NCBI GenBank assembly: GCA_029260115.1
Contig: JAJDDW010000064.1
Location: 1-64,000, forward strand
DNA from: Phycisphaerae bacterium
GTDB lineage: Bacteria; Planctomycetota; Phycisphaerae; UBA1845
Length of the DNA stretch: 64,000 nt
Reading direction: 5' to 3'
The position numbers and the translations under genes are program-made. Of this stretch, positions 53,777-59,162 are shown piece after piece; the first letter of the stretch is position 1; each line of letters starts with the position of its first letter. Below the pieces are notes generated by a model. That model worked only from the letters and a program-made list of their open reading frames with translations. It was not told where the DNA came from and did no database searches.

Positions 53777-53876
53777 GCCTGCACTTACCCTGGAAAAACC
53801 CGATGATTCGCCGCCATCCCCATCCGGCGAGATGGTCGGTCGATCCTGTAGCCACCGACGATATTGGCCCCTATTG

Positions 53877-54003
53877 GGCGATAATCATTGACGGCCAGGC
53901 GATCCACGGCACCCGAATGGTACAAGTGGGCTGCTCTGTTTCCAGCCTGACCCGTTGCCCGCAACACCCGCTGCATGGGACCTGGCCGTCAATGATTACC
54001 GCC
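53877..54003 (-). ncRNA. ffs: Bacterial (4.5S-like) signal recognition particle RNA
   Basis: Minus strand contains domain IV core GGGTCAGG-CTG-GAAA-CAG-AGCAGCCC at 53929-53953 (compare E. coli GGTCAGG-TCC-GGAA-GGA-AGCAGCC). An 18-bp perfect terminal helix (53882-53899/53981-53998) extends by 4 bp past one mismatch. Directly upstream of dnaX, as in several bacteria. Exact ends uncertain. Confidence 0.88.
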
Positions 54004-54230
54004 GCAAAGACTACGACCCTCGGCCTGGGCGGATCATAGCATGTTTGGCGCAATAAGTAACTAGCCGCCCGAATGCATAATTGCGATATATCGCGTGGCA
54101 ATGCCTGCTGGGCGAGTCGTGGGCCGACAATTATTGTTACGCTTCGGCCACTATTATGCCATGCGACGCTTGGTAGCGAAGTAGGCTGACATGTTTTTAG
54201 AGATGGCAGATGTGAGTGCTTCAATAGTCT

Positions 54231-54274
54231 AGGCAGGTTAACCTTTCGCCAGTAGGCGAAAGAACGACCGTGCC
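54231..54274 (-). repeat. ~40-bp dispersed hairpin repeat, copy B
   Basis: Minus strand GGCACGGTCGTTCTTTCGCCTACTGGCGAAAGGTTAACCTGCCT; internal TTTCGCC-TACT-GGCGAAA stem. Confidence 0.8.
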
Positions 54275-54298
54275 CAACGCAAATGCGCGCAGTGCGCA

Positions 54299-54343
54299 AT
54301 CCAAAGCCCCGAGGCGTCATGCGGAACGACTCGGGGCCTTTGT
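54299..54343 (-). terminator. Probable terminator downstream of the Cys-rich exported protein gene
   Basis: Inverted repeat CAAAG(G)CCCCGAG...CTCGGGGCTTTG; no long T-run. Confidence 0.5.
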
Positions 54344-54378: not shown

Positions 54379-54993
54379 CTACCCTGTTGGTGTTGGTGTT
54401 ACTGGCTTGGGAGCAGGGTGACAAGAGAACGAACACGAACTCTCATTCGTACCGCAATTCACACCCGCAACACCATGATCACAGGCTCCTACAGCTAGGG
54501 TTACGCACGCGGAGCAAGTCAGGGCAGCAAATGCTGCGGGATCCTCCCCGTCTGGGGATTCGGGAACGACAATAACGCTCTGCCCACTCAAGAGGTTAGT
54601 TACATTGCCCGCAGAGTCTACTAATTGTGTGGTGCCATCTACACTCTTCAGCATGCCGCTTTCGATCGTGTCACCGAGAAAGATCACGGAATCCTTACCC
54701 AACGATCGTTGCAGCCCCACCAATCTAACTGCTTTTGTAACTACCAGTACAGGATGATCACCGCCCAATACAAGTTGATCAAAGCCGTCGACAGCTTGCC
54801 GTGCGGCGCGCGTAAAGCCAACGAACTTCACGGGACGGTCCAGCACGATGTAATCATAGTCAACTGCCTTCACGTCTTGATTCTGCTTCGCCACAACTGG
54901 AGCGTCTTGCTGTTCCGTAGCTACAACATTTTGAACCTCTACAGCAATAACTACCGCACCAAACGCCACCAAACTTACCAAGAGTTTCTGCAT
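54379..54993 (-). CDS. Exported hypothetical protein with Cys-rich C-terminus
   Basis: 204 aa; hydrophobic N-terminus; C-terminal TCSACVTLAVGACDHGVAGVNCGTNESSCSFSCH; SD-like GGAG upstream. Confidence 0.6.
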   Translation of the reverse strand: MQKLLVSLVAFGAVVIAVEVQNVVATEQQDAPVVAKQNQDVKAVDYDYIVLDRPVKFVGFTRAARQAVDGFDQLVLGGDHPVLVVTKAVRLVGLQRSLGKDSVIFLGDTIESGMLKSVDGTTQLVDSAGNVTNLLSGQSVIVVPESPDGEDPAAFAALTCSACVTLAVGACDHGVAGVNCGTNESSCSFSCHPAPKPVTPTPTG

Positions 54994-55560: not shown

Positions 55561-57225
55561 CTAAGGGCGATGCCATTCGCTGCACGTCGCGCACATATCG
55601 TGATCCGAATAATCATCGCGGCTATGCGCGTCGCGCACCTGCTGATAATTTTTCGAGCGCCAAATCTGGGCGAGAGAATTATCCGTTAACGAACCGATAG
55701 CTGATCGACCGCGAAAATCCTGATCGCACAATACCACATCGCCATTGGCCAAGACCACACAGCGATTGCGAACACGCGAACAAGCCGTGCGGGGCGAGGG
55801 AGCCATGTTCATGACACTGTGATCAGCAAACTGATGGGCGTAGTGACTCGCGCCACTAATAGCTACCGTACCCAGCTTCCCATACCAGCCATCAAAAAAA
55901 ACATCCAACTCCTGCACGTTTTCTTTGGCTTTGGTTATCTCTGGCACGACTAACGGAATCGCACTGCCACGCTGTTGACATTTTTCAGTCACGCGGTCCA
56001 TGTTTCGGCGGACGTGTTCCAAGCTTGCCGATGACGGACTATTGGGCGACATCAATTGCCCATACAAGTCCGGCGACCAAGCATCGAGCACAATGTTTAG
56101 GATGTCAACTTGGTTATCAATCATCGCGTCGATATGCTCGTCTGTCATCACAGCCGCGTGCGTTCGGACGGCTATGCCAAATATCGGCGACCCACTACGC
56201 TGACCCGTGCGAATGGCAGCGAGAATAGCGGGGAAGTGCGGATGCAACAAAGGATCCCCAAACCCGCCGAGGACCATCAAACTATCATCGAAAGCGCTAA
56301 GTTCTTCGGCAATGTTTCGTACTATCTCAGACTTAATAGGCCCGCGCGCCGGCACGCACTGTCCGCGTGGGCGGAGCAACGCATTGGGATAGCTATCCTG
56401 CGTAGTCAACTCAATCTCAACTTCGCGCGGTAATGCCTGCACCGTTTCGCTGGCCCGCTTCATCAACCATCTACCTACGCTGGCTTCGTCATGCACATCG
56501 TCAGCCGCTAAAAACGCTTCGAGCGATGACACCCCCCGGCTGGTATCCGCTTGCAATCGGCCTGCAGCGTATCGAAGTTCGACAGGGATTTCGCAACAAC
56601 CCGGCAAAAAAATCTGATCCTTACGTGGGACATCAGGCTGGTAACCAAACACCCAGCCGATGGGAATACTTTTCTTGGCTAACTCATCCACCGCATCTCG
56701 ATGCAAAAGCAATCCAGACAAACCCGGCGGCGCCTGCGTGAATGTCATGGTGATTTCTTCTTCTTCCGCGACGCAATCTTGATGATCTATCATACGGTCA
56801 GCCAGGACCGGATCGAACGCCGCAGCCGCCGATGGCACGCAAAGACAATAGTCAGCCGTGACGGTTTCCAACACTTGCGCAAGCAGCGAGGCGTCCATAA
56901 ACTCATCGTAACTCGTCGTGCCTCCCAACCCGCCACGCCAACCGTCAAGCGACCATTTTCTAGCCGAGCGCACCAACGAACGCCAAGGGGTGGCTATTAT
57001 CTGTGCCGGGTGCAGCGTAATCGGCGCATCAGCCAAAAGCGCTGCGCACCGCGCGTGTTGCTCAACAGGACAAACTACATGAATCTCCCCGACCCGCATC
57101 GCTTTAGCTACGCGATCAATCGTGCGTCGAAGAACGGGCACACCGTCAAGCTCATCGCACAGTCGGCTGCGCGTGCCCAAAGGCGTTTCGTCAAGATTCG
57201 CGATCATGACAGCAATAACTTTCAT
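55561..57225 (-). CDS. SpsF-like nucleotidyltransferase-type domain fused to a SPASM-type/radical-SAM-like domain lacking CxxxCxxC
   Basis: N-terminus LGTRSRLCDELDGVPVLRRTIDRV resembles SpsF/CMP-sugar synthetases. Mid-region VEIELTTQDSYPNALLRPRGQCVPARGP...MVLGGFGDPLLHPHFPAIL is radical-SAM-like. C-terminal CSRVRNRCVVLANGDVVLCDQDFRG...CATC is SPASM-like. Confidence 0.65.
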   Translation of the reverse strand: MKVIAVMIANLDETPLGTRSRLCDELDGVPVLRRTIDRVAKAMRVGEIHVVCPVEQHARCAALLADAPITLHPAQIIATPWRSLVRSARKWSLDGWRGGLGGTTSYDEFMDASLLAQVLETVTADYCLCVPSAAAAFDPVLADRMIDHQDCVAEEEEITMTFTQAPPGLSGLLLHRDAVDELAKKSIPIGWVFGYQPDVPRKDQIFLPGCCEIPVELRYAAGRLQADTSRGVSSLEAFLAADDVHDEASVGRWLMKRASETVQALPREVEIELTTQDSYPNALLRPRGQCVPARGPIKSEIVRNIAEELSAFDDSLMVLGGFGDPLLHPHFPAILAAIRTGQRSGSPIFGIAVRTHAAVMTDEHIDAMIDNQVDILNIVLDAWSPDLYGQLMSPNSPSSASLEHVRRNMDRVTEKCQQRGSAIPLVVPEITKAKENVQELDVFFDGWYGKLGTVAISGASHYAHQFADHSVMNMAPSPRTACSRVRNRCVVLANGDVVLCDQDFRGRSAIGSLTDNSLAQIWRSKNYQQVRDAHSRDDYSDHDMCATCSEWHRP

Positions 57226-59162
57226 GATTTTTTCTGTGCTTCCTCGACACGATGGCGAGCCTGTTTGATGACATCGAACATTTCCTTTGCACCCTCAGCG
57301 ACTTCTTTCATAAAACGAATGTCCCGATCAAGCTGTTTTTTAGCCCGAGCTTTTTCATCATGCTCAACCGCCCCGATACGCCTATCCGCGGAATATCGCT
57401 GCAGCTCAGCCGTCTGCGTGGCAGCGTTGACAATAAGATAGCCTCGACTCTCGCGCGACACTTTTGTACGCAGCTCGTCAATGCGGACAAGCTTGCGATT
57501 AAACACGTCGGGCTGATCTAACAAGCCCTGTAACTGTCGAAGTAATACCAATAACTGTTCGCAGGTGGACCGGACCTCTTTCAATTCATCCAACCGTGTA
57601 GAAAGCTCGCACCGCGTAGGCTCTAACCCGCTCGTCTCACGCCAGTTTACAGATTCTCGATAAGCAAACCGCTGCGGATCAATTGGCTCATGGCAATAAC
57701 GCTGCGCGGCGTCTTCGAGCGAAATAGGATTCGCGCCGCGAATCGCAGCCCCACCTTCCGTGGCATTGAACACTGTACGCGACACGCCAGCTATATCTTT
57801 TTCAAATTGTTCGAGATAGGTAAACAATAGCTCGTCCGTATAGAGCGTAGAACTATCGACGCCGCGCACCTTACGGAGGATTGGCCCATTACGTGCGATA
57901 CGGTCCCATTCTTTCATTTCGATCGAGTTATAACGATTGATTTCGCTCCGCCAGGCCTGGTGAATCTCTACACCCGGCACGTAAAACACATGCCCCGTAA
58001 AGGCTAAGTCCTGTCCCACGAAAATGATCGGGTCACATCCTAAATAGTTAGCCAGGTAAAAGGCCAGGTGCGCGACAGTTGCCCCAGCCGTTAACCCATC
58101 GCGGGCAGCGAGCGACTCGCCAATCAACAGCTCGGCCCACGCATTATGCAACAAGGAAACTGGGCCTGGATAATGATCGATCACCGCTTCGGATGCTTTA
58201 GGCTCTGCGACAAGATGCACGTTAGTTAGATCGCCAGCGATTTCATAAAACTTTCGGGACATAGCATGAAAATCGAGACTGGTTACAAAATCTGGCACGA
58301 TGCCACGCTGCATTAATGGCTTCAACGAAGTCTGCACCGCAATGATCACCGCTCGGCCTTTCAATGCTTTGAGCTGATCGATATTACGCGACAGCGATGG
58401 GCCTGCTGAAACTATGATGCAAGGATCACCCACGAAACGATCCTTGAGCATGTCAATCGGCGGCGTGGAAACGTAGGTACGCAGATTCATCGCGATGTTA
58501 CGACAAGTAATACGCGAGTTAGCCATCAGCGTCGTGAGGCTCATGTGGGTAAACGTCACAAACTCCGACACGACGTTCGTGATCGCATGCTGCGCACCCT
58601 GAGCAATCTTCATCGAGGCCGCATGGTCAACGAACTGGGCACCAATCATCATCAGCGTATGGTGAGGCTGAAGCACTTGGTGCACGCGCACTTTGTCGTC
58701 GTCTGTTAAAAATAAAAGTTTGCCTGAAGCCAGCATGTCAGACACATCGATATGCGCTAACGCCGTAGCTAACAGCGGAATCGATGGCTCACAGCAGACA
58801 ATGATAAAATCGCTGCGTAGTCGCGCGTATAGTGCCTTGATGTGATACCCCAACCCGAAACCGCGCACGACGAAGCAATATTTTTCGTCTATCTCTACGC
58901 CTTCGATCAGGCTCCGCGCTTCAGCTTGTGGATCGTATCGGCTGTGTAAATAAATCGACTTGCCATCCGGCGTATCCATGCGGGCGGTCAACTCGCCCGA
59001 ACGCGTAGACTCAACCGGTATCCGTGCTTGGTCAGCCACCGCGTCAATCTGCATAGCTAGCTCAGGATCACATTGCCACATCGCACGCATGTTGCCCAAG
59101 AAAATATGATTCACCTGGCTGGTAGAGCTGGACAAAGTTGTTGATGTTACTGTTGCGACCAC
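57222..59162 (-). CDS. DUF115/Maf-like (motility accessory factor family) putative glycosyltransferase
   Basis: 646 aa; CIIVSAGPSLSRNIDQLKALKGRAVIIAVQTSLKPLMQRGIVPDFVTSLD and GCDPIIFVGQDLAFTGHVFYVPG are typical of DUF115/MAF; ATGA overlap with the downstream gene. Confidence 0.85.
   Translation of the reverse strand: MVATVTSTTLSSSTSQVNHIFLGNMRAMWQCDPELAMQIDAVADQARIPVESTRSGELTARMDTPDGKSIYLHSRYDPQAEARSLIEGVEIDEKYCFVVRGFGLGYHIKALYARLRSDFIIVCCEPSIPLLATALAHIDVSDMLASGKLLFLTDDDKVRVHQVLQPHHTLMMIGAQFVDHAASMKIAQGAQHAITNVVSEFVTFTHMSLTTLMANSRITCRNIAMNLRTYVSTPPIDMLKDRFVGDPCIIVSAGPSLSRNIDQLKALKGRAVIIAVQTSLKPLMQRGIVPDFVTSLDFHAMSRKFYEIAGDLTNVHLVAEPKASEAVIDHYPGPVSLLHNAWAELLIGESLAARDGLTAGATVAHLAFYLANYLGCDPIIFVGQDLAFTGHVFYVPGVEIHQAWRSEINRYNSIEMKEWDRIARNGPILRKVRGVDSSTLYTDELLFTYLEQFEKDIAGVSRTVFNATEGGAAIRGANPISLEDAAQRYCHEPIDPQRFAYRESVNWRETSGLEPTRCELSTRLDELKEVRSTCEQLLVLLRQLQGLLDQPDVFNRKLVRIDELRTKVSRESRGYLIVNAATQTAELQRYSADRRIGAVEHDEKARAKKQLDRDIRFMKEVAEGAKEMFDVIKQARHRVEEAQKKS

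Follow-up and report, generated by a model that had tools for sequence, protein, structure and literature searches.

Nonulosonic acids are attached to flagellin serine and threonine residues by Maf proteins (PMC11339370), and flagellin is bound by Maf proteins in the cytoplasm, before it meets its chaperone and before export (PMC4065374). Such glycosylation is already known; the striking part of the locus described here is that a radical-SAM protein (S), disarmed and strictly conserved, has a defined partner, a Maf-type transferase (M). Searches of the literature on Maf systems found no description of coupling or fusion to an S-like protein, no paper was found that treated Maf, flagellin and DUF115 jointly, and none on flagella and nonulosonic acid in Planctomycetes. 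As a possible precedent, the Shewanella sfm cluster was considered and rejected; its paper makes no mention of radical SAM.

In structure, S most resembles the BtrN-type radical-SAM/SPASM-twitch enzymes (top Foldseek match 4m7t, E 4e-12), and a profile match to their auxiliary-cluster region (1e-10) aligns four cysteines. Unlike these enzymes, S has no CxxxCxxC motif, and hence no SAM-cleaving cluster, and carries an extra N-terminal domain. The fold of that domain is shared with the CMP-nonulosonic acid and CMP-Kdo synthetases and IspD, and there is a weak profile match to NeuA, but the motif-1 arginine of the synthetases is lost in S. Among NCBIfam families, the best match of S is the uncharacterised spiro-SPASM family TIGR04321 (2.5e-32, residues 217-552), at 112 bits compared to a cut-off of 250 bits, which was reached in none of 392 genomes of the phylum. 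The domain plan is probably common to S and TIGR04321, because relatives of S such as L092 match positions 75-506 of the 510 in that family. S gives a handle on it. A literature search on spiro-SPASM found nothing, and a search of viral contigs found no TIGR04321-like member. Plasmids yielded partial matches, covering about half of the query at <30% identity, and among the matches listed most were annotated as radical SAM.

Layout of the gene pair

The window, by which we mean the whole 64-kb stretch of DNA that was analysed, carries M and S as two minus-strand genes that overlap by 4 nt (ATGA), as originally predicted, and all of the segments quoted in that prediction (VEIELTTQDSYPNALLRPRGQCVPARGP, GGFGDPLLHP and CSRVRNRC...NGDVVLCDQD...CATC) are present in S. 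The features discussed below are as follows.

57222..59162, minus strand: M protein, 646 aa, GTG start; predicted Maf-type flagellin glycosyltransferase (PF01973, PseD NF050051, Foldseek)
57996..58499, minus strand: PF01973 (Maf central / MptE-like) domain within M; no other copy in the genome exceeds the cut-off
57222..57225, minus strand: ATGA shared by the stop codon of M and the start codon of S, read from the sequence and consistent with coupled translation
55561..57225, minus strand: S protein, 554 aa, ATG start; degenerate radical-SAM/SPASM protein that begins with a cytidylyltransferase-fold domain (ORF, Pfam, NCBIfam, AlphaFold2, Foldseek)
56491..57225, minus strand: N-terminal cytidylyltransferase-fold domain of S, residues about 1-245 (Foldseek, hhalign, conservation)
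55801..56442, minus strand: radical-SAM-type barrel of S, with no CxxxCxxC, residues about 262-475 (PF04055, hhalign)
56338..56421, minus strand: segment in place of the CxxxCxxC loop, residues 269-296 (61-sequence alignment, position fixed by hhalign)
56239..56268, minus strand: GGFGDPLLHP at residues 320-329, corresponding to the SAM-binding GGE motif (alignment, hhalign)
55582..55782, minus strand: SPASM/twitch domain of S, residues 482-548, with invariant Cys482, Cys500, Cys545 and Cys548 (PF13186, 7e-14)

The DUF115/Maf-like identity proposed for M was borne out. M matches the Maf central domain PF01973 at 8.6e-41 (140 bits, cut-off 34.6), and the best Foldseek match of its model is the Maf protein 5mu5 of Magnetospirillum magneticum (E 7e-20, over 701 columns). 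The model has the three-part Maf architecture, with a Rossmann-like N-domain, the PF01973 core and a C-terminal helical bundle (helices at residues 513-645 in the AlphaFold secondary structure). M shares this fold and the PF01973 domain with described Maf proteins, including PseD, but is only about 14% identical to 5mu5 in the structural alignment and falls below the cut-off of the PseD family NF050051 (1.3e-27). The match to PF20157, which represents the N-domain, is likewise below its cut-off.

The barrel and the SPASM region of S

The AlphaFold2 model of S has a mean pLDDT of 95 and a pTM of 0.93, and contains the TIM-barrel and SPASM folds that had been expected of it. Its C-terminal part matches BtrN, sactipeptide and anSME enzymes in Foldseek, and Pfam, Foldseek and hhalign all recognise the partial TIM barrel of the radical-SAM fold. 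S matches the Pfam Radical_SAM profile (PF04055) at 1.8e-7 (31.9 bits, cut-off 29.5), starting at profile position 22, past the cysteine motif, and all 61 members of the S family match PF04055 at E<0.1. The CxxxCxxC that an active radical-SAM enzyme uses to hold its SAM-cleaving [4Fe-4S] cluster is missing. An hhalign comparison of the S family with the phylum's canonical radical-SAM/SPASM proteins extends over 279 columns (probability 100, E 3.6e-53), and therefore fixes where the missing cysteines would be expected. The segment found there is conserved among the relatives of S as P.E(V/I)E(I/L)ELTT-D-LRPRG, and the lone cysteine within it in the window protein is not conserved in the alignment of 61 proteins. 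Further along the barrel, G321 and G323 are invariant, and position 324 is D in 39 and E in 22 of these sequences.

The original prediction rested on the sequence of the window only, and the missing motif could on that basis have been a local mutation, a sequencing error or a sign of a decaying pseudogene. We now give this explanation next to no probability. CxxxCxxC occurs in none of the 61 order-level sequences, and the survey of homologs likewise found it in none of the phylum relatives that carry the N-terminal domain; moreover, the alignment contains about 30 invariant columns, and the open frames are full-length in the relatives. A match to S was obtained in 97 of 100 related genomes, a few of these being fragments or distant radical-SAM matches only, and a scan of a genome collection with the single S protein returned only one close relative, which is public and labelled Planctomycetota. 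In a phylogenetic tree, one branch parts 47 motif-less proteins from 9 canonical ones (SH-aLRT 96); the N-terminal domain went undetected in a single motif-less protein and in every canonical one. The simplest reading, which depends on the rooting of the tree, would be a single loss of CxxxCxxC at the base of the S family.

Throughout the sampled family the site of the SAM-cleaving cluster has been lost, and S should therefore be incapable of radical-SAM chemistry. Annotation usually takes radical-SAM proteins to be radical enzymes; the S family constitutes a large, strongly conserved branch whose members, by known chemistry, are not, and which has a clear genetic partner and process.

The Cys-rich, SPASM-like C-terminus that had been noted in S is also real, as judged from its PF13186 match. 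Its four cysteines are invariant in all 61 sequences, line up in a profile alignment with the auxiliary-cluster cysteines of BtrN, and form the pattern for an auxiliary [4Fe-4S] cluster, the cluster itself being predicted. BtrN has one auxiliary cluster. The proposal that S kept auxiliary Fe-S clusters thus stands with respect to the retained site and falls with respect to the plural, since four conserved cysteines match one cluster. An invariant site of this kind, with no catalytic cluster to serve, could make S a redox or iron sensor, in which the single SPASM cluster toggles M in response to oxygen or iron. We consider a sensor improbable, as auxiliary clusters may have a purely structural role, and one group of M-S fusion proteins (family f9, below) retains M and the N-terminal domain but has neither the SPASM region nor its cysteines.

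Coupling to M and the N-terminal domain

M adjoins S in 57 of 61 loci, in accord with the predicted conserved pairing of S with a DUF115 protein. Of the four other loci, three belong to genomes that encode M at another place, and the fourth to a genome in which M was not found and whose assembly is 71% complete. Of the 56 M-S pairs measured in other genomes, 42 overlap by exactly 4 nt, which implies that the ATGA overlap is beyond chance. Moreover, M and S are fused into single proteins in two loci of family f9 (L149 and L150) and one of family f90 (L156). A long fusion frame in another locus (L163) was not counted, as M lies in a different frame there. The f9 fused proteins retain the N-terminal domain of S, with its FRGG...DE, HAPAGL and Y.P..PR.D motifs, and the absence from them of the SPASM region and its cysteines is our chief reason for concluding that some members do without the Fe-S site. 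S itself appears to be dispensable for some M proteins, because it was undetected in about 8 of 34 genomes that encode M.

The original prediction also described an SpsF-like N-terminus. At the level of fold this holds, as Foldseek matches the N-terminal part of S to IspD (3q80) and CMP-Kdo synthetase (1h6j); at the level of sequence it does not, as no Pfam nucleotidyltransferase matches the window protein significantly. NTP_transf_3 is matched at E<0.1 by 30 of 61 relatives, and hhalign pairs the domain with NeuA at a probability of 95 in what is a weak profile alignment. By that weak alignment, S lacks AR.GS.GLPGK, the motif 1 in which CMP-sugar synthetases conserve an Arg and a Lys: where NeuA has the R of AR.GSKGLPGK, 59 of 61 sequences have Asp or Asn, and the lysine position is mostly Arg (54 of 61).

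Eight residues of the domain (R89, W91, W96, R97, D107, D203, R223 and D227) are nevertheless invariant in all 61 sequences, and as read from the alignment, R89, W91, W96, R97, D107 and D227 could mean that the domain still catalyses something. S might then be a non-radical enzyme. Either ahead of M or following it, the N-terminal domain would tailor the nonulosonic acid, or else activate a second sugar or transfer it. This is the strongest rival to a role of S as a partner subunit of M, and it agrees with the confident IspD/CMP-Kdo synthetase fold and with the retention of this very domain in the f9 fusions that lost SPASM. We nonetheless regard it as rather unlikely, given the substitution of the motif-1 arginine, by weak profile alignment, and a separate NeuA domain with an intact motif, fused to NeuB and encoded by the same genome.

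Flagellin and nonulosonic-acid genes

The fused enzyme lies on another contig of the window's genome and is followed by NeuC.

L171 5486..7255 (G000:C122): NeuA-NeuB fusion (CMP-nonulosonic acid synthetase with NeuB synthase), 589 aa, intact motif 1 in the NeuA domain

The predicted link to nonulosonic acids was supported by gene neighbourhoods, in which neuA, neuB or neuC lies beside M-S in some genomes; domains were confirmed for representative neighbour genes. One locus (L162) reads M-S-NeuAB-NeuC, and NeuA, NeuB or NeuC is found near M-S in L164, L167, L168, L060, L065 and L068. NeuB was present in 32 of 33 genomes encoding M.

No flagellar gene lies near the M-S pair in the 64-kb window, and on this ground the original prediction had suggested the Tad pilus or an S-layer as the target. 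A surface structure other than flagellin now seems very improbable. The same genome has six flagellin-type matches, with a flagellin locus on another contig (L172). Across the phylum, flagellin is present in all 34 M-bearing genomes compared to 135 of 246 overall (Fisher p=1.6e-10; a correlation among genomes partly related by descent). Moreover, M and S adjoin flagellin or flagellar genes in other genomes, as in the orders flagellin-M-S (L151) and FlgK, flagellin-type protein, FliW, flagellin, FliD, FliS, M (L152). One genome that is 98% complete (G004) has neither S nor M, no flagellin, no FlhA and no strong NeuB match, and its congener (G034) has all of these.

Sequence comparison establishes that M and S are coupled, that they are fused in some lineages, that the motif cysteines have been lost, and that the pair is linked to genes for flagellin and nonulosonic acids. 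We conclude that M and S probably form a flagellin-glycosylation module, with M as the Maf-type transferase and S as a non-radical, co-translated partner subunit. The original idea of a glycosylation module built on a repurposed radical-SAM scaffold is thereby supported by the DUF115 pairing, the absent CxxxCxxC and the predicted barrel/SPASM fold; these are the outcomes of the three checks that had been named as able to refute it, and each went in its favour. In such a module, the NeuA-NeuB fusion and NeuC would make the CMP-activated nonulosonic acid, which M would take and attach to flagellin in the cytoplasm. S would be bound to M, and contact with the donor or flagellin would fall to its CMP-sugar-synthetase-like domain; S might present that donor, dock flagellin or regulate M. 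The one [4Fe-4S] site that S retains would have a structural or modulatory function. S thus probably assists M as a subunit and does not act as a radical enzyme, its biochemical role being deduced from these comparisons.

A fuller history, which we judge about evenly poised between right and wrong, would begin with a single loss of the catalytic cluster from a radical-SAM/SPASM enzyme. Joined to a domain of CMP-sugar-synthetase fold, the protein would have come to serve a flagellin glycosyltransferase as its dedicated subunit across much of the phylum; in one lineage, it would have been fused to the transferase and then have lost its Fe-S domain too. If true, both enzyme domains of S would be disarmed, making it a pseudoenzyme that serves protein glycosylation. 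The findings suggest that Maf transferases in these bacteria operate with a dedicated partner, and they predict that the flagellin of these Planctomycetota bears nonulosonic acid and that S is needed for it.

Several neighbouring genes were also noted. A 1058-aa flagellin with a very large central region is encoded directly upstream of M and S in one genome (L151 6041..9217, G103). In many genomes, a gene whose start resembles an HDOD-type protein, as judged by reading the sequence, lies beside neuC; examples are the window's genome (L171 8502..9413, G000:C122) and L060, L065, L068, L168, L173 and L174. A B12-binding radical-SAM protein (L168 3690..5171, G156), matched by Pfam from profile position 1, is encoded inside an M-S-NeuA-NeuB-NeuC run and possibly tailors the sugar. 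Within the window, a bacterial small SRP RNA (RF00169, 54.6 bits) lies at 53890..53987 on the minus strand, just upstream of dnaX, and the open reading frame at 53871..54320 is probably spurious because it overlaps this RNA. Adjoining the M-S pair, at 54379..54993 on the minus strand, is a gene for a 204-aa secreted-looking protein with a Cys-rich C-terminus.
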